Positions 3,267 to 36,160 of a DNA stretch of 64,000 bases are shown here, one piece after another. Position numbers and translations under genes: made by a program. The notes beneath the pieces were generated by a model. It was not told where the DNA came from and searched no databases. It saw only the letters and a program-made list of their open reading frames with translations. Source of the stretch: Shinella sp. PSBB067 (GTDB taxonomy: Bacteria > Pseudomonadota > Alphaproteobacteria > Rhizobiales > Rhizobiaceae); the NCBI RefSeq assembly GCF_016839145.1, contig NZ_CP069304.1, positions 434,001-498,000 on the forward strand, in the 5' to 3' direction. The number at the start of each line of letters is the position of its first letter. Positions within the stretch are counted from its first letter, which is position 1.

Positions 3267-4367
3267 TCAGCGGTTGTTGGTGATCCAGAAGTCGAGCAGT
3301 TCCTGCCGGCGCTCGGCGACCTTCGCATTGTCGGAAACGAGCAGCGAGGTGCCCCAGCCTTCGACATTCGGGAAGGGATTGCCCGGATTGGAGGAAAGCT
3401 TCGGGTTGGACGAATAGGCGCCGAGATCGCCGGTCCACGGCTTGGCGCCTTCTTCCGTCAGGAGGAAGTGCGTCAGGAGTTTTGCCGCATTCGGGTGCGG
3501 GCCGCCGGCGACGAGCTGGACATAGCTCGGCTGGTTGATGCCCTGGAACGGCTTCAGCGCGCACATGCCGAGCGCCAGGTTCTTCGTCTCGATCTCGCGG
3601 TGGCGGCCGAGCGTGTAAAGGCCGAGCGGCGGGTTTTCCTGGCCGCGCGCGCCGACGGCCGCGGCGATCTCCACGTCCTCGTTGTAGAGCACGGGCTTGG
3701 ACCCGGCGAGACGCTTGATGAATTCGAGGCCGGCATTCTTCTCCGTCAGCTCCAGCGGCTTGCCGTAGAGGTCCTGATAGGCGGCGGCGAGTTCGTCCGA
3801 ACGCTCCTCGATGGCGGAGAACGCCTGGACCTGCGTGGACCGCAGGCGCGGGTCCAGCATGTGGAAGCGGCCGGCCCATTCCGGCTCGGTCAGCTGCCAG
3901 ACATTGGTGATCGGGCAGGACTGGTAGCGCTCGGTGTTGTAGCCGATGATCGTGACCTGCCAGAGGTAGATCAGCGGATCCTGGCTTGCCGCGGGAATAT
4001 CGCCGGCAAGGTCGGCCGGCAGCTCGTTCTCCACGAAGGCGCCGGGCCTCAGCTCGGTGACGAGGCGCGGGCCGTCGTCATAGCCGATGATGTCGGCCTG
4101 CACGTTGCTCGCCTCCACCTCGCGCACCACGCGCTCGGTGCTTTCGGCATCGGTCATCTTCGTGCCGAGCACCTTGATGCCGTATCTGGCCTCGAAGGCC
4201 TCGCCGGCCTTGGCGATGCGGCTCGAATGCCAGTAGGCGACGACGCTGCCTTCCTCCTTGGCGGCGGCGATCAGCGCCTCCATGCCGGCCTCGTCCGCCG
4301 ATGCGCAAACCGGCAGCAGCACGGCGGCCGTTGCCAGCAGAAATCCTGCGATGGTCTTCAATGTCAT
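3267..4367 (-). CDS. ABC transporter substrate-binding protein, FbpA/AfuA-like (366 aa)
   Basis: Periplasmic binding protein with a Sec signal peptide (about residues 1-24, ending CASADEA) and a class II fold typical of the iron(III)/phosphonate/sugar-phosphate cluster. It starts like that family with an AAKEEGSVVAYW strand. Genome annotations often call such proteins iron(III)-binding. I do not see the paired tyrosines (YYN) that coordinate ferric iron in FbpA, and the ROK regulator plus inositol-phosphatase neighbour favour an organic or phosphorylated ligand. It begins 23 bases after the ROK regulator gene ends, so the regulator is the likely first gene of the operon. Confidence 0.87.
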   Translation of the reverse strand: MTLKTIAGFLLATAAVLLPVCASADEAGMEALIAAAKEEGSVVAYWHSSRIAKAGEAFEARYGIKVLGTKMTDAESTERVVREVEASNVQADIIGYDDGPRLVTELRPGAFVENELPADLAGDIPAASQDPLIYLWQVTIIGYNTERYQSCPITNVWQLTEPEWAGRFHMLDPRLRSTQVQAFSAIEERSDELAAAYQDLYGKPLELTEKNAGLEFIKRLAGSKPVLYNEDVEIAAAVGARGQENPPLGLYTLGRHREIETKNLALGMCALKPFQGINQPSYVQLVAGGPHPNAAKLLTHFLLTEEGAKPWTGDLGAYSSNPKLSSNPGNPFPNVEGWGTSLLVSDNAKVAERRQELLDFWITNNR

Positions 4368-9857: not shown

Positions 9858-12092
9858 ATGACGCATGGCAATCGCAGGCTGGACCTGGTCCTTGTCCTGG
9901 GCGCGGTCGCATTGACCCTTCTGCCCTGGTATCGCATCGAGAACGGCTTCTTCGGGTTCGGCTGGCTTTCCGGTTTCCCGCTTTCCGCCGAGGCCGCGCC
10001 CGGTCTCGCCCAGATCGCGGCGCATGGCCGCCTGTGGCTCGCGGCCGTCGTTCTGCTCCTTCTTATCGCCGGTCTGGCGCGCGGCATGGCGGACCCGATG
10101 CGCCGCGGCGCCGTGCTGGCCTGGATGGGGGCGATCGGCGTGCTGTTCCTGGCGCTCCAGGGGCTCGCCATCGGCTTTTCCGGCTGGACATGGGCGATCA
10201 GCGAAAGCCTGTTCGGCCCGCTTGCCGACGGCCAGTCCTCGATGGGGGCGGGCGCGGTGCTCTCCGCCATCACCTTCGTCCTGATGTTCTCCTTCGGCCT
10301 TGCCGAGCGGGGCGTCATGAAGGGCGATGCCTTCGTCGTCAGCTCGATCTCGCTGCTCGTCTTCCTCGTCGCGGTCTTCGTCTTCTATCCGATCGGCAGC
10401 ATGTTCATCGGCGCTGTGCAGGATTTCGACGGCGCGTTCAATCCCGATAATTTCATCCGCAACCTGCAGGACCCGAGCATCTGGAGCCTCAATTGCGTCA
10501 TCGGCGCGGGCCGCTGCGGCGTCGCCTGGCGCACGCTCTGGCTCGCCATCATGACGGGCCTCGGCTCCACGCTGCTCGGCCTTGCCTTCGCGCTGGTCGC
10601 CACCCGCACGCAGTTTCCCTTCAAGAAGGGCCTGCGCCTTTTGACGATCCTGCCGATCATCACCCCGCCCTTCGTCATCGGCCTTGCGCTGACGCTGCTC
10701 TTCGGCCGCGCCGGCGTCGTCACGCAGGGGCTTTCGAGCCTGCTCGGCATCGAGCCCGGCCGCTGGCTCTACGGCCTCACCGGCATCTGGATCGCGCAGG
10801 TCCTCTCCTTCACGCCGATCTCCTTCCTCGTGCTGATCGGTGTCGTCGAGGGCGTCAGCCCGTCGATGGAGGAAGCGTCGACCACGCTGCGCGCCAATCG
10901 CTGGCGCACCTTCTACCGCGTCTCGCTGCCGCTGATGAAGCCGGGCCTCGCCAATGCCTTCCTTATCGGCTTCATCGAGAGCATGGCCGACTTCGGCAAC
11001 CCGCTGGTGCTCGGCGGCAGCCACGGCGTGCTCTCGACGGAAATCTTCTTCGCCGTCGTCGGCTCGCAGAACGACCCGTCGCGCGCGGCCGTGCTCGCCA
11101 TGGTGCTGCTCTTCTTCACGCTCTCGGCCTTCCTGGCCCAGCGCGTCTGGCTCTCCGGCAAGAACTTCGCCACCGTCACCGGCAAGGGCGACAGCGGGGC
11201 GCATATCGCCCTGCCCAGGGGGCTTTCCATCGCCGTCCATTCGGTGGTCATCCCGTGGGGCCTGTTCACGCTGGTCATCTACGGCATGATCCTCGTCGGC
11301 GGCTTCGTGAAGACCTGGGGCCTCGACAACTCGCTGACGCTCGACCACTACATCAAGGCCTTCTCGATCAGCTTCGGCAATGGCACGGCCTGGGGCATCG
11401 CCTGGACGGGCGTCGCCTGGAACTCGTTCTGGACGACCATGGAGATCGCGCTTCTTTCCGCCCCGCTCACCGCCGCGGTGGGCCTGCTGACGGCCTATAT
11501 CATCGTGCGCCAGAAGTTCGCCGGGCGGAACGTCTTCGAGTTCGCGCTGATGATGAGCTTCGCCATTCCCGGCACGGTCATCGGCGTCAGCTACATCATG
11601 GCCTTCAACCTGCCGCCGCTGGAAATGACCGGATCTGCGCTGATCCTGATCGCCTGCTTCGTCTTCCGCAACATGCCGGTCGGCGTGCGCGGGGGCATCG
11701 CGGCGATGAGCCAGCTCGACAAGAGCCTCGACGAGGCCTCGCTGACGCTGCGCGCCGGCAGCTTCCGCACGATCCGCAAGGTCATCCTGCCGCTCCTGCG
11801 TCCCGCCATCACCGCCGCGCTCGTCTATTCCTTCGTGCGCGCCATCACCTCCATCAGCGCCGTCATCTTCCTCGTCAGCGCCGAATACAACATGGCGACC
11901 GCCTATATCGTCGGCCTCGTCGAGAACGGCGAATACGGCGTGGCGATCGCCTATTCCTCCATGCTGATCGTCGTGATGATCGCGGTCATCGCCGGCTTCC
12001 AGCTTCTCGTCGGCGAACGGCGGCTCAGGCGCGAGAACCGCGTCGCCGGCCTCGCCCCGTCCTCGTCCTCCCGCCAGGAGAAAATCGCATGA
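9858..12092 (+). CDS. ABC transporter permease, fused double-domain with N-terminal membrane extension (744 aa)
   Basis: Two BPD_transp_1 domains with EAA loops (EEASTTLRANRWRTFY and DEASLTLRAGSFRTIR) form the inner-membrane channel. It is about 140 residues longer than the related permease at 1378-3183. The extra ~175 N-terminal residues contain several hydrophobic stretches (for example residues 9-25, 58-75, 88-110 and 135-155) that come before the first canonical domain. The stop codon overlaps the ATPase start as ATGA, indicating translational coupling. Confidence 0.88.
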   Translation: MTHGNRRLDLVLVLGAVALTLLPWYRIENGFFGFGWLSGFPLSAEAAPGLAQIAAHGRLWLAAVVLLLLIAGLARGMADPMRRGAVLAWMGAIGVLFLALQGLAIGFSGWTWAISESLFGPLADGQSSMGAGAVLSAITFVLMFSFGLAERGVMKGDAFVVSSISLLVFLVAVFVFYPIGSMFIGAVQDFDGAFNPDNFIRNLQDPSIWSLNCVIGAGRCGVAWRTLWLAIMTGLGSTLLGLAFALVATRTQFPFKKGLRLLTILPIITPPFVIGLALTLLFGRAGVVTQGLSSLLGIEPGRWLYGLTGIWIAQVLSFTPISFLVLIGVVEGVSPSMEEASTTLRANRWRTFYRVSLPLMKPGLANAFLIGFIESMADFGNPLVLGGSHGVLSTEIFFAVVGSQNDPSRAAVLAMVLLFFTLSAFLAQRVWLSGKNFATVTGKGDSGAHIALPRGLSIAVHSVVIPWGLFTLVIYGMILVGGFVKTWGLDNSLTLDHYIKAFSISFGNGTAWGIAWTGVAWNSFWTTMEIALLSAPLTAAVGLLTAYIIVRQKFAGRNVFEFALMMSFAIPGTVIGVSYIMAFNLPPLEMTGSALILIACFVFRNMPVGVRGGIAAMSQLDKSLDEASLTLRAGSFRTIRKVILPLLRPAITAALVYSFVRAITSISAVIFLVSAEYNMATAYIVGLVENGEYGVAIAYSSMLIVVMIAVIAGFQLLVGERRLRRENRVAGLAPSSSSRQEKIA

Positions 12093-22670: not shown

Positions 22671-23118
22671 CGTTCGCCCATCCGCATAGACGCGGAAAGT
22701 GCTGTTCAGACGCTTCGCCATCTCTGGCGATTTGACGACCTGTTTTCCAGCACTGTCATCCTGGAATTCGACGCGAACAGCGATCTGAGGCCGGACGAGG
22801 CAGAATTGCAGGCGGTTTGCCTCACTCAACCAGTTCGACCATTTCCAGATGGTCACCGCCGACGGCAAGGAACCGCTGGGGTTTTCCGGCAAAGTGGTGT
22901 TCGGGGTCTATGATCCGACGTTCTAAATGGCGATCGATTTCGCGCAGGATGACCATATGGCCGTCGGGAACATGCCGGCCCATTGCCCGCGAAAGGTGGT
23001 CACGCCCGATCCGGGCGAGGCCATCGCCGAAAACCAGGCAAGCCTGACGGAAGCCTTCTTCACAGACCCGACGGATCTTTCGAAACTGTTCGCAACCGGG
23101 CTTCGGTTGGATTGTTGA
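22671..23118 (+). pseudogene. DUF1007 family protein, degenerate copy
   Basis: Segments match the intact DUF1007 gene at 23989-24648: LRHLWRFDDLFSSTVILEFD, then in a shifted frame SLNQFDHFQMVTADGKEPL, GKVVFGVYDPTF, an in-frame TAA (22924-22926), then MAIDFAQDD, PRKVVTPDPGEAIAENQASL and ATGLRLDC-stop. The start and signal peptide are lost, there is at least one frameshift near 22815, and about 27 residues between ADGKEP and GKVVFG are deleted. It is clearly non-functional. Confidence 0.75.
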
Positions 23119-23183
23119 GCGGCGGGCGCATCGAACGGACAGTCAACCGAATCCGGCACACGGGCTTGAAGGCGCCCCGGATG

Positions 23184-23699
23184 TCAGCGCCGCGTTGCTC
23201 TCCTGGCCTGGCTGCTTTCGGAGCGCACCTGATATGCCATGCAGGCGTGGTATGTGCAGTAGGGAGCGCCGTTTTCGGTCTTTGCGCCGCAAAACCGGAA
23301 ATCCGGCGTCAACGGATCACCGATTGGCCATTTGCAGGACGATGGCTTCAATTCCATCATGGTGACACGCGGGAAGATCGGCATGGCTTCTGCGGCAGCT
23401 TCGGCCGGCATGGCCTCGGCTTCCGGCCTCACCGCGGCATTGCCACGCACGAGATAGGGAACCGGCTGCGGCGAAGCCGGCGTTCGAACCGGCCGGGCGC
23501 TTTGCCGGACTGCCGTCTTCACCGATGATACCGTTTGTCCGGTCTTGCGGCCGGGCAAAGCGAGGCGGTGGACCTTGCCGATCACGGCGTTGCGCGAAAC
23601 ATGACCGAGCTCGGCCGCCACCTGGCTGGCGCTCAAGCCGTCCGCCCACAGCTTCTTCAGCTTTTCCACCCGCTCGTTCGTCCACGTCGCGCTTGTCAT
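23184..23699 (-). CDS. GcrA-family cell-cycle regulator paralogue (171 aa)
   Basis: The N-terminal DNA-binding domain WTNERVEKLKKLWADGLSAS through NAVIGKVHRLALPGRK (residues ~6-50) is nearly canonical for GcrA, which binds sigma-70 and methylated GANTC promoters. The C-terminal sigma-interacting part keeps CKWPIGDP...FCG...YCTYH (about 125-155); its Cys/His set could hold a metal. The linker is Ala/Pro-rich. The ATG at 23699 has GGAG upstream. It sits alone in a metal-homeostasis island behind a Zur-like box, unlike the usual housekeeping location, so it is probably a second, stress-linked copy. Confidence 0.85.
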   Translation of the reverse strand: MTSATWTNERVEKLKKLWADGLSASQVAAELGHVSRNAVIGKVHRLALPGRKTGQTVSSVKTAVRQSARPVRTPASPQPVPYLVRGNAAVRPEAEAMPAEAAAEAMPIFPRVTMMELKPSSCKWPIGDPLTPDFRFCGAKTENGAPYCTYHACMAYQVRSESSQARRATRR

Positions 23700-23721
23700 C
23701 AGGCACTCCAATCATCGCTAT

Positions 23722-23740
23722 GTTATGTTATAACGATAAC
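23722..23740. promoter_or_regulatory. Zur-like operator upstream of the GcrA-like gene
   Basis: GTTATGTTATAACGATAAC is a near-palindrome centred on GTTATAAC, 23 bases upstream of the gcrA-like ATG. It matches the site before the COG0523 GTPase (31478-31496) at 16 of 19 positions and resembles known alphaproteobacterial Zur boxes. Nothing recognisable lies between it and the DUF1007 gene ending at 23989. Confidence 0.65.
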
Positions 23741-23988: not shown

Positions 23989-24648
23989 CTAACAACGGAC
24001 CTCCAACCGTGTCGCAACGATCTGCGAATAGTCGGTGCCTTGCGGATCGCTGAAGAATAGCGTGGTGAGCATCGCCTGGTTTGCGGCAAGGATATCGTCC
24101 GAACCCGGCCTGACGACTTTCCTGGTGCAGCGCTTGAACCCTTCGCCGGTCGTCTTCAGGGCGTCGTCCTTGAGGAAGTCGAGGGCAGTGTAAAGCGTGG
24201 GATCGTAAACGCCGAAGACGATCAGCCCCTTCAGCGGAGTCCTCCTGGCCGGCTTCTGGGAGAACGACAGGATCAGCGAGCCGTTTTCATACGTCGCGTG
24301 GATGGTGTCCGGCCTGGCGAGAGGCACCTTTTTTCCGTTCACGGTTATGCTCGTGTAGTAATCGTATTGCGCAAGGGAGTCGCGCACTGTGCCGGCGACG
24401 GTCGTCAGTTCAGCCCCGTCCAGGACCGAGTTTCCGTTTTTGTCGAAGTCCATGACCACCGAAGAAGAGAACAGATCATCGAAGTGCCAGGTGTCGCGAA
24501 GTTCGAGCAGGGTCCCGTCGGCGCCCGCTATGGCCTCGAATCTGGCATCCACGAAGATGTGGGGATGTGCGAACGCTGCCGTCGGCATGCCGGCCAGGAG
24601 CGACAGGATGGCGCCGGAAACCCGGCATCGAAATCGTTGAACGGTCAT
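23989..24648 (-). CDS. DUF1007 family periplasmic protein (219 aa)
   Basis: Signal peptide ending AAFAHPH, with the mature protein starting HPHIFVDARFEAI as usual for DUF1007. An EF-hand-like loop follows, FDKNGNSVLDGAEL. Function is unproven; the family is often encoded beside nickel/cobalt or zinc permeases and is thought to help metal handling in the periplasm. The start at 24648 (MTVQRF) was preferred over one 19 codons upstream because it puts the signal peptide at the N-terminus; neither has a good ribosome site. It is divergent from a second DUF1007 gene. Confidence 0.82.
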   Translation of the reverse strand: MTVQRFRCRVSGAILSLLAGMPTAAFAHPHIFVDARFEAIAGADGTLLELRDTWHFDDLFSSSVVMDFDKNGNSVLDGAELTTVAGTVRDSLAQYDYYTSITVNGKKVPLARPDTIHATYENGSLILSFSQKPARRTPLKGLIVFGVYDPTLYTALDFLKDDALKTTGEGFKRCTRKVVRPGSDDILAANQAMLTTLFFSDPQGTDYSQIVATRLEVRC

Positions 24649-24770
24649 CGGAAATGACTGCGAGCGGATTGCGACCGATTTAAGTTTTTTCGATCCTGAG
24701 CCCATCGATTTGCCGCAATTTGGCGTCCACCTGCGGCCATTCGGGACAGCGCAATGACGGCAGCCGTATC

Positions 24771-25427
24771 ATGATCAGAAAGACCGGGATCAGCGCCTTT
24801 GGCATGGCGTCCTTTCTGGCGCTTGCCTTGCCGGCAATGGCCCATCCACACGTCTTTGCCGATGGTCATGTGGTTCTGGACATAGACGATGCAAGGGAGC
24901 TGACGGCGGTGAGGAACGAATGGACGTTCGACAAGCCGTTCTCCTCCTTCGCGGTGATGGGCCTCGACAGGAATCACGATGGCAAGCTTGAGCCGTCGGA
25001 GCTCAAGCCTCTCGCCGAGACCTCGATGAAGTCCCTGGCCGATTACCACTTCTTCACATGGGTGACGCGGAACGGCGCGGAAGTGGAGCTTTCCGCTCCG
25101 CGGGACTACACCTACCGCTTTGCCGGCGGGCGGCTGACCCTGCGTTTCAGCATGCCGCTGAAGACGCCGGCGCCCGTCGGCGACGATCTCAAGGTCGAGG
25201 TGTTCGACCCTGAATATTTCGTCGCCTACACCTTCCCCGAACAGGGCGCGATCACGCTTGCCGGCGGGGCGTCCGGCTGCCGCGCAACCTATATTCCTCC
25301 CAAGCCGCTCGACGACCAGATCATGGCCACTCTGGCGGCCATTCCGGCCGAGCAGCACGACCTGCCGCCTGCACTGGAGGATGCGGCCGTGGGGCTTGCC
25401 AACATCTTCACGGCCAAATGTTCATGA
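24771..25427 (+). CDS. DUF1007 family periplasmic protein (218 aa)
   Basis: Signal peptide (ending AMAHPH, residue ~25), then HPHVFADGHVVLD. A textbook EF-hand loop, DRNHDGKLEPSE, lies at about residues 66-77, so Ca2+ or another divalent ion may bind. The gene overlaps the following RcnA-type permease start by four bases or so, which points to joint function in metal transport. It differs strongly in sequence from the DUF1007 protein on the other side of the shared 122-base promoter region. No Zur-like box is visible there. Confidence 0.82.
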   Translation: MIRKTGISAFGMASFLALALPAMAHPHVFADGHVVLDIDDARELTAVRNEWTFDKPFSSFAVMGLDRNHDGKLEPSELKPLAETSMKSLADYHFFTWVTRNGAEVELSAPRDYTYRFAGGRLTLRFSMPLKTPAPVGDDLKVEVFDPEYFVAYTFPEQGAITLAGGASGCRATYIPPKPLDDQIMATLAAIPAEQHDLPPALEDAAVGLANIFTAKCS

Positions 25428-26452
25428 GACACCTGCGCGGTTTGGCAGTGTTGGCCGCCACGATCGCCATGTCCAGCGTAGCGCTGGCGGCATCCGGCCC
25501 CTTCGGTATCGCCACGCCGGATTCACCCGTCGGAAACGGCGTTTCAGGGCCGGCCGCGCCTCTATACCTCGCTGCCATTCGATTGCAGACGCTTTTTTAC
25601 CAGAAGCTGACATCGGCGCTGGACGCCTTCTCCGGCGATCCGCATGCCGGTCTCTGGCTCGTGACCTTGAGCTTTCTCTATGGGATATTCCATGCCATCG
25701 GCCCGGGACACGGAAAGGCCGTCATCTCGTCCTTCGTGCTTGCGACCGGTGAAAGGTTGCGGCAGGCGGCCGTGATGTCCGTGCTGGCGAGCGCGCTCCA
25801 GGCCTTTTCCGCGATCGCGATCGTTCTGGTGGCGGCGACGGTATTCGACGCGACGGCATCGCAGATCACTGTGCTCACCGACAGGTTGGAACTCGGGAGC
25901 TATGCCCTGATCACGTTGCTCGGCGTGACCCTGCTTGCCGCAAAAGCCCGCGTGTTCATGCGGCATTGGGGCGGGCGGAGACCGGCCGGCTCGTTTGCCT
26001 GTGAACCGGTGATGCCTGACGGTGCAAACCCCGCCGGCGTCCGTTGGCCGGGCCTCCATCGGCACGACGCGACATGCGGGTGCCTCGCCGCCAGCCACCT
26101 AGCCATGGATGGCCCGGCAACGTCGAGGAGGGAAAAGCTGCAGGCGATCGTTTCGGTCGGCCTGCGCCCGTGTTCCGGCGCCTTGATCGTGCTGGTCTTC
26201 GCGCTGGCCCGCCACCTTGCCCTCGCCGGAATGATTTCCGTGCTGGCCATGGCCGCGGGGACTGCCCTGACCGTCAGTTTCGTCGCTGCCCTGTCGGTGA
26301 TGGCGCGGGGACTTCTTGCGCGGTTCGTCCTTTCGGGCGCCGGCGGAAAGCATCGTTTTGCCGCAAGTCTCGAATTCGCCGGCGCCTGCGCCGTGTTCCT
26401 GTTCGGCGTCACGATGCTGACCGGCTTGCTTGTCGCCGATGGCGTGATGTGA
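25424..26452 (+). CDS. RcnA/NiCoT-type nickel/cobalt transporter family protein (342 aa)
   Basis: Inner-membrane protein with an N-terminal signal-like segment and about six to seven further helices. The family motif FHAIGPGHGKAV (residues ~89-100) holds the metal-binding His residues, and VSVGLRPCSGALIVLVFAL is the second conserved block. A loop of about 60 residues with scattered His/Cys (around 200-225) lies between them. Relatives move Ni2+/Co2+, and DUF1007-linked members in zinc regions may carry other metals. The start could be ATG 25418 or 25424; the latter overlaps the DUF1007 stop. Confidence 0.82.
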   Translation: MRHLRGLAVLAATIAMSSVALAASGPFGIATPDSPVGNGVSGPAAPLYLAAIRLQTLFYQKLTSALDAFSGDPHAGLWLVTLSFLYGIFHAIGPGHGKAVISSFVLATGERLRQAAVMSVLASALQAFSAIAIVLVAATVFDATASQITVLTDRLELGSYALITLLGVTLLAAKARVFMRHWGGRRPAGSFACEPVMPDGANPAGVRWPGLHRHDATCGCLAASHLAMDGPATSRREKLQAIVSVGLRPCSGALIVLVFALARHLALAGMISVLAMAAGTALTVSFVAALSVMARGLLARFVLSGAGGKHRFAASLEFAGACAVFLFGVTMLTGLLVADGVM

Positions 26453-30262: not shown

Positions 30263-31468
30263 TCACGCCGCCCGCCGGTCCCAGCTTGCGAAGGGGTCCG
30301 GCAGGTTGCGCCAACGCTCGGGCTCGAAGGTGTCGCAGTCGATGAGGCAGGCGTCCAGCTCGGCACGGATTTTCGCCTCGTCCATGGGATCGGCGCCGAT
30401 GAAGACGATCTCCTGCCGCCGGTCGCCCCAGACCGGATCGATATGAGGCTGCATCATCTGCAGGAAGCCGGGATCCTGCGGCCATCGTGCCTTCGGCACG
30501 GAGGACCACCAAAGGCCCATCCGGCCGGTGCGCACCAGCGCGCCCGCCTGGCTGATCTCGCCGACATGATGCGGCCGCGTCGCCAGCCAGAAGAAGCCTT
30601 TCGCGCGCACGACGCCCGGCCAGGAACGGTCGATGAACCCCTGGAAGCGCGTCGGATCGAACGGCCGTTTCGCGCGATAGACGAAGGAGCGGATGCCGTA
30701 TTCCTCCGTCTCCGGCACATGGTCCTTGAAGCCATGCAGTTCCTTGAACCAGAGCGGATGGGTCTCGGCCCTGGCGAAGTCGAAGCGGCCGGTTCCCAGC
30801 ACCTCTTTCAGATCGACCCTGCCGAAATCGACTTCGACGAGCCTGGCGTCCGGATTGAGCGAAACGATGATCTTGCGTGCGGCGTCCCGCTGTTCGTGCG
30901 TCGCCATGCCGATCTTGTTCAGCACCACCACGTCGGCGAACTCGATCTGCTCGACCAGCAGGTCGACCAGGGTGCGGTCGTCCCCGTCTCCTGCCGTTTC
31001 GCCGCGGTCGGAAAGGAAGTCGGAGGAGGCGTAGTCCTTCAGAAGATTGGCGGCGTCCACCACGGTAACCATGGTGTCGAGCCTTGCCACGTCGGACAGG
31101 CTCAGGCCGTTCTCGTCGCGGAAATCGAAGGTGGCGGCGACGGGCAGGGGCTCGGCGATGCCGGTCGATTCGATCAGCAGGTAGTCGAAGCGATCCTGCT
31201 CGGCGAGCGCGCGCACCTCCTTCAACAGGTCGTCGCGCAGCGTGCAACAGATGCAGCCATTGGTCATCTCGACCAGTTGCTCCTGGGTGCGCGAAAGGTT
31301 CGCGCCGCCGTCGCGCACCAGCGCGGCGTCGATGTTGACCTCGCTCATGTCGTTGACGATCAGCGCCACACGCAAGCCCTCGCGATTGGCGAGGATGTGG
31401 TTGAGGAGGGTCGTCTTGCCGGCCCCGAGGAAGCCGGAAAGGACGGTGACGGGGAGTTTCTTGGCCAT
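30263..31468 (-). CDS. COG0523 (CobW/ZNG1-like) GTPase, zinc-linked (401 aa)
   Basis: P-loop GTPase with Walker [10 protein letters not shown] at residues ~10-18, the COG0523 metal motif CICC in [11 protein letters not shown], Walker B-like ESTGIAEP, base-recognition NKIG and a CobW_C domain (about 270-380). It acts as a metal chaperone in the cytoplasm. A Zur-like box lies 10-28 bases before its ATG and the gene follows zur, so this is the low-zinc subfamily rather than the cobalamin-synthesis CobW, despite the B12 operon next door. The start MAKKLPV has AAAGG upstream. Confidence 0.9.
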
Positions 31469-31477
31469 TTGGATACC

Positions 31478-31496
31478 TTTAACGATATAACATAAC
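31478..31496. promoter_or_regulatory. Zur-like operator before the COG0523 GTPase
   Basis: Minus-strand GTTATGTTATATCGTTAAA, matching 16 of 19 positions of the site at 23722-23740. It lies just upstream of the GTPase ribosome site, between zur and the GTPase gene, so binding would block this promoter in zinc-replete cells. Confidence 0.68.
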
Positions 31497-31545
31497 AATG
31501 ATGGATCGGAGAGCGGATGCTCTGTGCTCCAGCCCGGTCCATCGG

Positions 31546-31959
31546 TCAGTGGCAGTCAGCGCACAGTCCGTGAACTTCGATTGTGGTGGCTCTGATCTTG
31601 AAGCCGCTGCGCCTGGCGTGCTTGACCAGGGCGTCCTCGACCTTCGGATCGTGGAATTCGTTGACCTTGCCGCAGGCTTCGCAGATCTCGAATGCGGTGA
31701 TGCGGGGATGGATCTGCCCATGCCGGGAATGACAACAGACGACGAAGGCGTTCATGCTTTCCAGGCGGTGCACCCGTCCGTGCTCCAGGAGCTTGTCGAG
31801 AGCGCGGTAGACTTGCAGGGGAGCTTTCAGGCCGTGGCTCCGCAGGCGATCGAGGATGCTGTAGGCGCTGAGCGGCTGGTCGGACGATTCCAGCACCCCG
31901 AGAACGAGACCCTGGTTCTTCGTCAGCGTCAGATCATGCGTATGAGCCACCTGTGACAT
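31546..31959 (-). CDS. zur: Fur-family zinc uptake regulator Zur (137 aa)
   Basis: N-terminal winged helix ([29 protein letters not shown], about residues 12-60) and a C-terminal dimerisation domain with CEAC near residue 95 and CADC near the end, the structural zinc site of Fur-family proteins. It keeps [15 protein letters not shown] histidines for sensing. The position next to the Azt importer and Zur-like boxes supports Zur rather than Fur. The ATG at 31959 was chosen for its GGAG six bases upstream. Confidence 0.9.
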
Positions 31960-31983
31960 TGCCATCTCCAAGCAGGAAGGGGG

Positions 31984-32025: not shown

Positions 32026-33261
32026 TTAGTGCGATATGCCGGAACCGCCAACGGCGACGATGGCAAAAGGCTGGCCCTCAACGGGAATGGTGCGCGATTC
32101 CTTCAGCGTCTGCGGATCGATGATGCGGACGAGCGAATGCCTGGGGTCCGTGATGGCGACCTGACCGTCGGCGACGGCAAGGCGCGGCCGCGGATCGCGC
32201 CAGTGGCCGTCCTTGCTATACGGCTCCGTCACCCTCGCCTGGCGGTCGATCTTGCCATTGATCACGTCCAGAACGTTCAGGAATCCGTCCTCGGTCAGGA
32301 TATAGGCATTGCGCGGATTGGCCGGATCGAGCGCGAAGTCCACGCGGCGCGTCGTAAGCTCGACGAGGCGATAGGGCTCCCCGCCGTCCGGGTCGATCAG
32401 CACGACCTTGTCCTCGCCGTAGTTGCCGAGGAAGAACTGCATGGCCTTGCCGCCGAGCAGCGTGCCGGTGGAACCCTCGGGCAGGTTGTCGGGATAGGCC
32501 AGCATCTCCAGCTTCGGCCCGTCGAGGCCGCCCGGCCGGGCGACCAGCACACCCTCCTTGCAGCCGAAGGCGACGAGGCGCGCCGACGTCGCCTCGCCAT
32601 GCAGGTCGGTGCAGGCGGCGACCTCGCCGACCTGCTGGCCGCTCTCGTCGAGGACCCTGAGGCCGATGCGCGGCGGCAGCGAGTCCGGCTTCACCTGCGC
32701 CGTGGTATCGGGAACCGAGACCAGCACGAACCGGCCCATCGTCACCGCCACGCCATGATGCGGCGCGGTCGTGTCGACCAAGCGGATGTCCGCCTTCCCT
32801 TCGAGAAGGGCACCTTCCTCGACGATCTCGGCCTTGCCGCCCCGGTCGTAGAACAGGGCCACCTCGCCGCCATGCGGGACGACATGGGCGGGCCGCTTGC
32901 CTTCGAAGGTCACGGGGAGAAGGGCGGGATCGGAGACCTTCAGGTCGCGGTGATCGCCATGGTCGGAGAAATCGATGCCGGTCTTGATGGCGTGGATGAC
33001 ATCCGCCTCGCCTTGTGCGGCGAACACCGTGCGGCCGGAAGCGCTCGCCGTCAGTGCGGCATAGCCCTTGAGGTCGTAGCGGCCGAGTTCCCTGCCGCTG
33101 TCGAGATCGATGGCGCGTACGACGGGCAGCGTGTGGTCGGCGACGAACAGCCGCCAGGCTTCCTTCGTCTCCTGGTCGTCGGCAAGGGCGCTCGATGCCG
33201 CAAGCGCGATGCCGGCGGCGACGGCGGCCATCAGGCGGTTCCGGGTGAATGTCAGGTTCAT
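32026..33261 (-). CDS. aztD: Zinc metallochaperone AztD (411 aa)
   Basis: Periplasmic protein with signal peptide (residues ~1-27, SSALADDQ) and a beta-propeller-like series of repeats. Histidine-rich segments HGDHRD, HVVPHGG and APHHGVAV match the AztD family, which passes Zn2+ to AztC in the Paracoccus-type zinc importer. Here aztD is divergent from aztABC across a 224-base region carrying two Zur-like boxes, instead of being the last gene of aztABCD. The length is typical. Confidence 0.88.
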   Translation of the reverse strand: MNLTFTRNRLMAAVAAGIALAASSALADDQETKEAWRLFVADHTLPVVRAIDLDSGRELGRYDLKGYAALTASASGRTVFAAQGEADVIHAIKTGIDFSDHGDHRDLKVSDPALLPVTFEGKRPAHVVPHGGEVALFYDRGGKAEIVEEGALLEGKADIRLVDTTAPHHGVAVTMGRFVLVSVPDTTAQVKPDSLPPRIGLRVLDESGQQVGEVAACTDLHGEATSARLVAFGCKEGVLVARPGGLDGPKLEMLAYPDNLPEGSTGTLLGGKAMQFFLGNYGEDKVVLIDPDGGEPYRLVELTTRRVDFALDPANPRNAYILTEDGFLNVLDVINGKIDRQARVTEPYSKDGHWRDPRPRLAVADGQVAITDPRHSLVRIIDPQTLKESRTIPVEGQPFAIVAVGGSGISH

Positions 33262-33407: not shown

Positions 33408-33455
33408 ATAAACGTTATTACATTACCGAAATTCTTGGTACGTAATAACATTACC
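33408..33455. promoter_or_regulatory. Two tandem Zur-like operators between aztD and aztA
   Basis: Site 1, ATAAACGTTATTACATTAC (33408-33426), and site 2, GGTACGTAATAACATTACC (33437-33455), are near-palindromes spaced 29 bases apart, close to three helical turns. Each matches 12-13 of 19 positions of the box at 23722. They lie 30-78 bases before aztA and about 150 bases before aztD, so cooperative Zur binding could close both promoters. Confidence 0.72.
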
Positions 33456-33485
33456 AATACCGATGATGTCAACCCCGGAGCGGCC

Positions 33486-34286
33486 ATGACCGATATCTGC
33501 CTTCAGCTCGAGAACCTGACGCTCGGCTATGACGGCCATCCTGCCGTTCATCATCTGAGCGTGGATATCGCCCGTGGCACCCTGACGGCCGTTGTCGGGG
33601 CCAATGGCTCGGGCAAGTCGACGCTGATGAAGGCGATCGCCGGCATCCTGAAGCCCATCGGCGGAGGCTGCTCGGTTCGCTGCAAACGCCTCGCCTATCT
33701 GCCGCAGCAATCTGAACTCGACCGTAGCTTTCCGGCCCGCGTCGTCGATCTCGTGTCGCTCGGCTTCTGGCAGAGGAGGGGACTTCTCGGGCGGATCACG
33801 GCAGAAGACAGGGTGGATCTCGCAAGGTGCCTTGCCGCGGTCGGCCTGACGGGTTTCGAGAAGCGCCCCCTGGACAGCCTCTCCGGCGGGCAGATGCAGC
33901 GGGCGCTCTTCGCCCGCGCCATGTTGCAGGATGCCGATCTCATCCTTCTCGACGAGCCGTTCAACGCGGTCGACGGCCGCACCGTGGACGACCTTCTCGT
34001 TCTAGTGAAGCGCTGGGTCGTGGAGGGCAGGACCGTTCTTTGCGTCCTGCACGATCATGATCTTGTCCGCGCGTATGTCCCGCAGACCATGCTGCTCGCC
34101 CGTGAACTGGTCGCCTTCGGTCCGACGCTCGACGTGCTGACGCCGGACAACCTGCAACAAGCGCGCCGCTTTCAGGAGGCCTGGGACGACGAGGCGGAAT
34201 GGTGTGCGCCGGAGGATGACGCGCAGCGGCAGGAACCCGGCCGGCCCGCCGAATCCGGCAACGAAAAGGGCCGGGCCTATGCTTGA
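33486..34286 (+). CDS. aztA: Zinc ABC transporter ATP-binding protein AztA (266 aa)
   Basis: Manganese/zinc-class ATPase with Walker A GANGSGKST, signature LSGGQMQRALFARAM, Walker B LILLDEPFNAVD and HDHDLVRAYV. The start MTDICLQ follows GGAG; the frame is open further upstream, but through the Zur boxes. It overlaps aztB by 8 bases. It energises zinc uptake with AztB and AztC. Confidence 0.92.
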   Translation: MTDICLQLENLTLGYDGHPAVHHLSVDIARGTLTAVVGANGSGKSTLMKAIAGILKPIGGGCSVRCKRLAYLPQQSELDRSFPARVVDLVSLGFWQRRGLLGRITAEDRVDLARCLAAVGLTGFEKRPLDSLSGGQMQRALFARAMLQDADLILLDEPFNAVDGRTVDDLLVLVKRWVVEGRTVLCVLHDHDLVRAYVPQTMLLARELVAFGPTLDVLTPDNLQQARRFQEAWDDEAEWCAPEDDAQRQEPGRPAESGNEKGRAYA

Positions 34287-35145
34287 ATATCTCTTCGAGC
34301 CGTTCATCCGCTACGGCTTCATGCAGCGTGCCCTGTTCGGCTCGCTGCTGCTGTCGGCAAGCTGCGCGCCGATTGGCGTCTTCCTGATGCTGCGGCGCAT
34401 GAGCCTGACCGGAGACGCCATGTCGCATGCCATCCTGCCGGGCGCGGCGGTCGGTTTCCTGCTGTTCGGCCTGGAGATCGTCCCGATGACCATCGGCGGG
34501 CTGGTGGTCGGGCTGCTGGTGGCGCTCGGATCGGGAATGGTGTCGCGCTTCACGGTGCAGAAGGAAGACGCCTCCATGGCGGCCTTCTACCTGATTTCCC
34601 TTGCCGTCGGCGTGCTGCTCGTCTCGTGGCGCGGATCGAGCGTCGACCTGATGCATGTTCTGTTCGGCTCGGTTCTGGCGCTCAACAATGACGCCTTGAC
34701 GCTGATCGTCATCATCGCCGCCGTCACTTTCCTTGCGCTTGCATTTTTCTGGCGAGGACTGGTGGCGGAATGCCTCGACCCTCTGTTCCTGCGCTCGGTC
34801 AGCCGCATCGGCGCACCGGTGCATTTCCTGTTTCTGACGCTCGTTGTGCTCAACCTCGTCGGTGGTTTCCAGGCGCTCGGAACATTGCTTTCCGTCGGCC
34901 TGATGATGCTGCCGGCGGCCGCCTCCCGCTTCTGGTCGAACCGGGTCGGGGCGATGTGCATGATTGCCGTCGCGATCGCGGTCCTCTCCTCGCTCGGCGG
35001 CCTCGTCCTTTCCTACCGCGCATCGATGCCCTCCGGTCCCGCCATCATCCTGACGGCCGGTGTCATCTATGCGCTTTCCGCTCTGGTCGGACGGAGAGGG
35101 GTGCTTTCCAGCCTCCTCGTCTCCCGCCGACACAAGACAGCCTGA
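34279..35145 (+). CDS. aztB: Zinc ABC transporter permease AztB (288 aa)
   Basis: Metal-class (ABC-3, ZnuB/MntB-like) permease with about eight helices. It has the typical N-terminal YGFMQRALFGSLLLSASCAPIG and the motif RRMSLTGDAMSHAILPGAA, which lines the metal path. Its ATG lies inside the end of aztA and the stop is 19 bases before aztC. Confidence 0.92.
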   Translation: MLEYLFEPFIRYGFMQRALFGSLLLSASCAPIGVFLMLRRMSLTGDAMSHAILPGAAVGFLLFGLEIVPMTIGGLVVGLLVALGSGMVSRFTVQKEDASMAAFYLISLAVGVLLVSWRGSSVDLMHVLFGSVLALNNDALTLIVIIAAVTFLALAFFWRGLVAECLDPLFLRSVSRIGAPVHFLFLTLVVLNLVGGFQALGTLLSVGLMMLPAAASRFWSNRVGAMCMIAVAIAVLSSLGGLVLSYRASMPSGPAIILTAGVIYALSALVGRRGVLSSLLVSRRHKTA

Positions 35146-35164
35146 TCCACAGAAGGAGATTTCC

Positions 35165-36160
35165 ATGTTCAGGACATTCCGTATTGCAACCTATGCCAGC
35201 CTCCTCACGCTGGGCGGCCTTGCCCCGGCCGCCTCGGCGGCCGATCTCGACGTCGTCGCCAGCTTCTCGATCATCGCCGACTTCGCGAAAAATGTCGGCG
35301 GCGAGCGCGTGGAGGTGACGACGCTCGTCGGCCCCGACGGAGATGCCCATGTCTACGAGCCGCGCCCGGCCGATGCCGCCGCGCTCGAAAAGGCGAATGT
35401 CGTCCTCGTCAACGGCCTTGAATTCGAGGGCTTCATGAAGCGGCTGATCGAGACCAGCGGCACGAAAGCGCCGGTGGTCGAGGTCACAAAGGGCATCGAG
35501 CCGATAAAGGCGGAAGAAGAAGAGCATCACCATGACGGCAAGGCCGAGGAGGCGGGTCATGGACACGATGGCGACGACAAGGAGGAAGCCGGCCACGACC
35601 ATGCGCATGAGGGCCACCATCATCACGGCGAGTTCGATCCGCATGCCTGGCAGTCGATCCCCAATGCCGAGATCTACGTGAAGAACATCGCCGATGCCTT
35701 CTGCGAGGCCGACAAGGCCGGTTGCGCCACCTACACCGCCAATGCGGACGCCTATCTTGCCAAGCTCGCCGCGCTTGAAACGGAGGTGAAAGCGGCGATC
35801 GATGCGATCCCCGCCGACAAGCGCACCATCATCACCTCGCATGATGCCTTCGGCTATTTCGAGCACGAATACGGCCTGAAGTTCATCGCGCCGGAGGGCG
35901 TCTCGACGGAAGCCGAAGCATCGGCCGCCGATGTGGCGAAGCTCGTCGACCAGGTGAAGGAAGACAAGGCGTCGGCGATCTTCCTCGAGAACATCACCAA
36001 TCCGCGGCTCATCGAGCAGATCGCCGGCGAAACCGGCCTCAAGGTCGGCGGCACGCTCTATTCCGACGCGCTGTCGGGCGAGGACGGCCCGGCCTCGACC
36101 TATATCGACATGTTCCACCACAACGTCGCGACGATGAAGGCGGCGATCCTCGGAAGCTGA
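35165..36160 (+). CDS. aztC: Zinc ABC transporter substrate-binding protein AztC (331 aa)
   Basis: Cluster A-I metal-binding protein with signal peptide (residues ~1-25, ASAAD). Likely Zn ligands are the His in DGDAHVYEP, the His in DPHAW, the His in TSHDAFGYF and the Asp in YSDALSGEDG. Between the first two lies a long acidic, His-rich loop (about residues 118-155, EEEEHHHDG through EGHHHHGE), which in this family picks up zinc and interacts with AztD. AAGGAG precedes the ATG. Confidence 0.93.
   Translation: MFRTFRIATYASLLTLGGLAPAASAADLDVVASFSIIADFAKNVGGERVEVTTLVGPDGDAHVYEPRPADAAALEKANVVLVNGLEFEGFMKRLIETSGTKAPVVEVTKGIEPIKAEEEEHHHDGKAEEAGHGHDGDDKEEAGHDHAHEGHHHHGEFDPHAWQSIPNAEIYVKNIADAFCEADKAGCATYTANADAYLAKLAALETEVKAAIDAIPADKRTIITSHDAFGYFEHEYGLKFIAPEGVSTEAEASAADVAKLVDQVKEDKASAIFLENITNPRLIEQIAGETGLKVGGTLYSDALSGEDGPASTYIDMFHHNVATMKAAILGS

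Follow-up and report, generated by a model that had tools for sequence, protein, structure and literature searches.

A second GcrA-family gene behind a putative Zur operator in a zinc island of Shinella sp. PSBB067

GcrA of Caulobacter crescentus is among the closest known counterparts of the gene reported here, with structures of the full-length protein (PDB 7ye1/7ye2), of the DNA-binding part (5yiu-5yiw, 5z7i) and of the sigma-binding part (5yix). Zur-regulated, COG0523-clustered paralogues of housekeeping genes are described in the available part of PMC2770081, among them CysRS and ThrRS paralogues that keep their putative zinc ligands, and zinc-free DksA and HemB stand-ins that have lost them. 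GcrA homologues are also carried by phages, both phiCbK (in the accessible part of PMC7987155) and IMG/VR contigs, where gcrA likewise lies outside the housekeeping locus.

We analyzed a 64-kb stretch of DNA from Shinella sp. PSBB067 (64,000 nucleotides, hereafter the window), which carries a GcrA-family gene that we call gcrA2. The PF07750 profile aligns to both the DNA-binding and the sigma-binding parts of the solved Caulobacter protein (profile residues 5-164), and GcrA2 has this two-part organization together with the same C-C-C-H set; unlike Caulobacter GcrA, it is an accessory copy that lies behind a Zur-like box and has a Cys two residues after the His (His+2). As in the paralogue clusters covered by the consulted portion of PMC2770081, gcrA2 is paralogous to a housekeeping gene, has a Zur-like box and lies in the neighborhood of COG0523, zur and zinc importer genes, and it resembles the CysRS and ThrRS paralogues there in retaining its ligands, but it encodes a cell-cycle transcription factor. 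The DksA and HemB stand-ins of that same portion follow the same regulatory logic, whereas GcrA2 keeps all four ligands and gains one candidate. Phage GcrAs are at most 47% identical to GcrA2 among the matches listed, and the His+2 Cys is absent from the readable phage homologues among them; phage origin of gcrA2 was rejected, with no close phage relative among the matches listed.

Each of GcrA, Zur and the Zur-regulated paralogues has been described before, and their combination is new within the literature searched: no link of GcrA to Zur or to zinc appeared in titles or opening abstract lines of that mostly non-subscription literature, and the word GcrA is absent from the main text of the Zur and zinc papers searched, PMC2770081 included.

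The second gcrA gene and its clade

Positions 23184-23699 of the window (minus strand) form an intact open reading frame with an ATG start, encoding a 171-aa GcrA-family protein and preceded by a GGAG (23706-23709, minus strand, read by eye) as the likely ribosome-binding site. The product scored 161.1 bits against PF07750 (cut-off 26.9), and the database protein P0001 is 98% identical to it, with equal length and equal start (the start also agrees with P0002 and P0003); the well-preserved GcrA-family gene described by the first-pass annotation is thus confirmed. Against the NCBIfam equivalog NF050816 the product reached 145.1 bits, under the cut-off of 280; since the housekeeping GcrA of the same genome also stays under it (155.1), this cut-off does not separate the two copies. 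A consensus search called no sigma-70 promoter and no terminator around gcrA2. GANTC occurs neither in the gene nor in the 500 bp upstream, so that control of gcrA2 looks metal-based, not methylation-based.

The genome comprises 5.77 Mb in four contigs, with the window on a contig of 684,612 bp. An 8.9-kb match to a Shinella sp. HZN7 plasmid, at 90.2% identity, points to a Shinella-like host. PF07750 has two matches in it, gcrA2 and a chromosomal housekeeping gcrA (204 bits) adjoining ORFs identified by eye as PhoU and PhoB. The search for a second gcrA, proposed earlier as a check, thereby identified gcrA2 as the extra copy, and because of this chromosomal gene gcrA2 is not the only gcrA in the genome. 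Elsewhere in the host genus, 7 of 20 other genomes (G001, G002, G003, G004, G012, G014 and G018) hold extra PF07750 matches, all at 26-80 bits and several partial; these are divergent or incomplete GcrA-like sequences.

A tree built from 128 GcrA proteins placed that of the window in a 16-member clade (support 100/99) together with P0001-P0013, a Sinorhizobium psoraleae protein and P0122, and the chromosomal copy among Rhizobiaceae housekeeping GcrAs. Searching with a clade model found a member in 1 of 394 genomes of the family, namely the genome under study (298.6 bits), and, within the genus of S. psoraleae, in 1 of 33 genomes, at 240.9 bits versus 187-191 for the rest. Matches of 203 and 201 bits in two more family genomes also passed the E-value, each lying within 3 bases of the top match of the same genome in a separate search. 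The clade is also named from Rhizobium wenxiniae, Ochrobactrum sp. S46, Brucella intermedia and Sinorhizobium sp. NFACC03; two R. wenxiniae genomes gave one match each, at 54%, and a plasmid search for gcrA2 relatives gave no match at or above 60%. Two clade members were seen in their DNA context (the window and S. psoraleae), both with a Zur-like box.

Zur-like operators in the window and the genome

A Zur-like operator, ATGTTATGTTATAACGA, lies at 23720-23736 upstream of gcrA2; its 13-bp core (23722-23734) ends 22 bp before the ATG and fits the Zur core GTWATNNNATWAC. We derived this core from the divergent znuA/znuC promoters of the genus (24 loci in 21 genomes, with both boxes visible in 13 stretches, the remaining stretches covering the far end or the gene interior) and from the azt promoters of three Sinorhizobium plasmid records. 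It is in line with the 15-bp Rhizobiales Zur box given in the available section of PMC7029138, and with a Paracoccus motif whose promoters were EMSA-tested, as reported in PMC5387054. Three further Zur-like boxes were located in the window: one before the COG0523 gene zigA (31482-31498, one core mismatch) and two with perfect cores before aztA (33412-33428 and 33440-33456). The near-palindromic box noted on first inspection is real, with its core 22 bp from the ATG; its similarity to the zigA box also held, at 15 of 19 positions in the best ungapped register instead of the claimed 16.

Exact copies of the core number three in the window (one at gcrA2, two at aztA) and six in the 5.77-Mb genome, before znuC, znuA, aztA (two), a DUF4198 gene and gcrA2. 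Each of the six is no more than about 60 bp upstream of a start codon (some starts read by eye), and zinc importer genes follow four of them; gcrA2 shares with Zur regulon members a putative box close to its start codon. The reversed core pattern, run as a control, gave four genome sites versus six for the true core, so the count is weak and the location of the cores is the evidence. A first, looser pattern allowing one mismatch was not enriched (8 matches versus 24 in the control). A first-order model predicts 0.63 cores per genome, or about 1e-5 per 100 bp, rising to about 4e-4 to 1e-3 per 100 bp if the composition is set to the 50-60% AT of intergenic DNA.

We then scored positions with a matrix built from 18 znu and azt sites of relatives, leaving out the gcrA2 box. 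In the window the gcrA2 box ranked highest at 24.3 bits, ahead of the second aztA box (21.2), the zigA box (16.7) and the first aztA box (13.4), a ranking to be read with the training sites having been collected by the same core expression that the gcrA2 box meets, and with the first pattern having been taken from that box. Across 1,499,146 bases of 80 named loci, picked solely for encoding GcrA relatives, no position reaches 24.3 bits.

Some further boxes were observed along the way. A perfect core precedes the chromosomal DUF4198 gene by 16 bp (L222:3619-3635; G000:C2:580620), and this gene is a likely further Zur target; DUF4198 has a putative link to metal uptake. An additional Zur-like box (for example ATGTTATATTATTACAT) is present in some genus members (L191, L197, L199), close to the far end of znuA, and hints at a further Zur target in that region. 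In Phyllobacterium sp. 2063, a weak Zur-like box (11.0 bits; L040:9897) precedes gcrA by about 100 bp.

The zinc island and a sister locus in Sinorhizobium psoraleae

gcrA2 is alone on its strand, flanked by NicO and by DUF1007 genes, both intact ones and a decayed DUF1007-like stretch, and the zigA-zur-aztD-aztABC cluster lies at least 7 kb away; the earlier description of a gene standing alone among metal genes agrees with this map. The decayed stretch (about 22800-23120, plus strand) has an internal stop and is convergent to gcrA2. On the other side, the DUF1007 pair and the NicO transporter gene span 23989-26452, and no position in that interval scores as high as the azt or gcrA2 boxes in the matrix scan.

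The cluster itself comprises zigA, a zinc metallochaperone GTPase of COG0523 (30263-31468, minus strand; NF038288 610 bits, cut-off 600); a Fur-family regulator whose best model is Zur (31546-31971, minus strand; PF01475 41.2 bits; NF008646 Zur 101.5 bits, under the cut-off of 167); aztD, a zinc metallochaperone (32026-33261, minus strand; NF038015 414.7 bits, cut-off 400); and aztA-aztB-aztC, a zinc ABC importer (33486-36160, plus strand; PF00005, PF00950 and PF01297; aztA start read by eye). The genome has two Zur-like Fur-family regulators, the island copy at 31546-31971 and one in the chromosomal znu operon (L083:386-793), and either could act on gcrA2. A 41.6-kb plasmid stretch of Sinorhizobium sp. 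RAC02 contains the azt cluster with its neighboring ABC genes and no match to gcrA2, DUF1007 or NicO; this excludes gcrA2 as a fixed member of the azt cluster.

The three top matrix matches among the 80 loci all belong to one locus of Sinorhizobium psoraleae CCBAU 65732 (L008). One, a 22.2-bit Zur-like box at 9909-9925, precedes a gcrA gene, 69 bp from the ATG, and the others are situated between folE and a zur-like frame (20.4 bits) and before an alcohol dehydrogenase gene (17.2 bits); in these boxes the second half-site is GCAAT, one base off the strict core. The locus encodes FolE, COG0523, CysRS, a ThrRS N-terminal remnant, an AraC-type regulator, a class III ADH, GcrA and HupE, with a possible hupE start at a GTG overlapping the stop codon of gcrA; the gcrA gene thus sits amid paralogues of zinc-dependent enzymes. 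Its zur-like gene (L008:3683-4291) looks broken, with Zur similarity confined to 3976-4221 and no FUR domain in the listed frame. The housekeeping gcrA of S. psoraleae is a separate copy (221 bits) on another contig. As a control, we scored 45 GcrA loci, consisting of one without a motif, three holding this same S. psoraleae gene and 41 others; the upstream regions of these 41 reached at most 5.3 bits.

With its housekeeping copy elsewhere, its COG0523 cluster, its box and its retained ligands, the S. psoraleae gene has the attributes of a ligand-keeping Zur-regulated paralogue, and its locus resembles the Zur-linked paralogue clusters of gamma- and beta-proteobacteria presented in the available text of PMC2770081. 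In the window the zigA-zur-azt cluster is about 7 kb from gcrA2. The link to Zur proposed in the first-pass annotation is backed, at the level of sequence, by the genome operator map, the matrix and this sister locus.

GcrA2 as a candidate zinc-starvation GcrA

We consider it probable that gcrA2 encodes a Zur-repressed GcrA that is induced by zinc starvation and stands in for, or competes with, the housekeeping GcrA at sigma-70. When zinc is plentiful, Zn-Zur (the chromosomal copy, the island copy or both) would occupy the box and block gcrA2 transcription; when zinc falls, GcrA2 would be made alongside ZigA and the two importers, Znu and Azt. Judged by its sequence, GcrA2 appears to keep both the methyl-GANTC-reading half and the half for binding to sigma-70 region 2, and most likely acts as GcrA does, as a sigma-70 cofactor at CcrM-methylated promoters. 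There it may replace or compete with the housekeeping GcrA, whose C-C-C-H site may suffer in zinc shortage. The gene, the second copy, the operator match, the clade, the extra Cys and the second Zur-boxed locus are read directly from the DNA; the repression, the induction, the zinc in GcrA and the backup function we infer from them.

The protein comparison bears on what GcrA2 would do once made. Between GcrA2 and the housekeeping copy, 39 of 47 residues are identical in the DNA-binding half, 12 of 53 in the linker and 25 of 51 in the C-terminal sigma-binding half, the last of which makes an altered GcrA2 function possible. It is conceivable, if unlikely, that Zur controls gcrA2 and that GcrA2 has been rewired, directing RNA polymerase to genes for zinc starvation or slowing the cell cycle; the divergent linker and sigma-binding half are consistent with this, as is the clade-exclusive Cys at His+2, but the closely matching DNA-binding half indicates that the same methylated sites are likely read. 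That half fits a same-target backup at least as well as redirected transcription would.

An alternative that questions the operator is that the box is a chance palindrome, or is bound by Zur without effect, and that gcrA2 encodes an accessory GcrA, gained by horizontal transfer, that plays no part in zinc biology. The six cores against four in the reversed control, the rare and accessory nature of gcrA2 and the RAC02 Zur cluster that lacks it are compatible with this explanation, and in S. fredii boxes were bound in vitro without Zur-dependent expression, as reported in the available part of PMC7029138. We nevertheless regard it as quite improbable, considering the 24.3-bit score and the position directly before gcrA2, and that the S. 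psoraleae sister gene is likewise Zur-boxed and among zinc genes.

The favored reading of gcrA2 as a Zur-repressed stand-in involves a Cys/His set (CKWP, FCG, YCTYH) that had been singled out as a possible direct metal sensor; the set is not special to this protein, for C122, C137, C148 and H151 are common to GcrA2, the housekeeping copy and Caulobacter GcrA, and direct sensing by this set as a peculiarity of gcrA2 was discarded on the same grounds. GcrA2 also does not exhibit the ligand loss seen in some Zur-regulated paralogues, as it keeps these four residues and adds C153, and a zinc-free replacement through ligand loss is ruled out. C153, the Cys at His+2, is present in 15/15 clade proteins and 0/213 other database proteins, a sample that is not neutral in having been found with clade queries, and in 0/80 proteins from the loci; a nearby Cys is not unique to the clade, since 14 of the 213 others have one at His+1. 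The first Cys is missing from one of the 16 rows of the clade alignment (P0010). That GcrA2 is itself a metal sensor, switched by zinc or another metal at C122, C137, C148, H151 and C153, is suggested by the clade-specific C153 beside C148-x2-H151, but with the other four ligands family-wide and the first of them lacking in P0010, it is the least probable explanation. Under the backup reading, the extra Cys beside the C-C-C-H site would instead tune metal affinity. Table 3 of PMC8469502, in the part available, gives zinc for sigma-70 while citing the GcrA-SID:sigma structure paper, and this entry hints at zinc in the sigma-binding half of GcrA.

More broadly, and only tentatively, GcrA could be a zinc-dependent sigma-70 cofactor, with some Rhizobiaceae carrying a dedicated, Zur-repressed GcrA for zinc starvation that has an altered metal site of five candidate ligands and keeps or reshapes CcrM-methylation-dependent cell-cycle transcription under zinc depletion. 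If this is true, the conserved Cys/His motif of GcrA becomes a testable zinc site, and a global sigma-70 cofactor would join the Zur-regulated paralogues, which in the portion of PMC2770081 consulted are enzymes and DksA. Metal nutrition would then be tied to the GcrA-CcrM epigenetic circuit; the second copy here, together with the sister gene in a related bacterium, suggests that zinc supply and the control of cell-cycle genes are connected.
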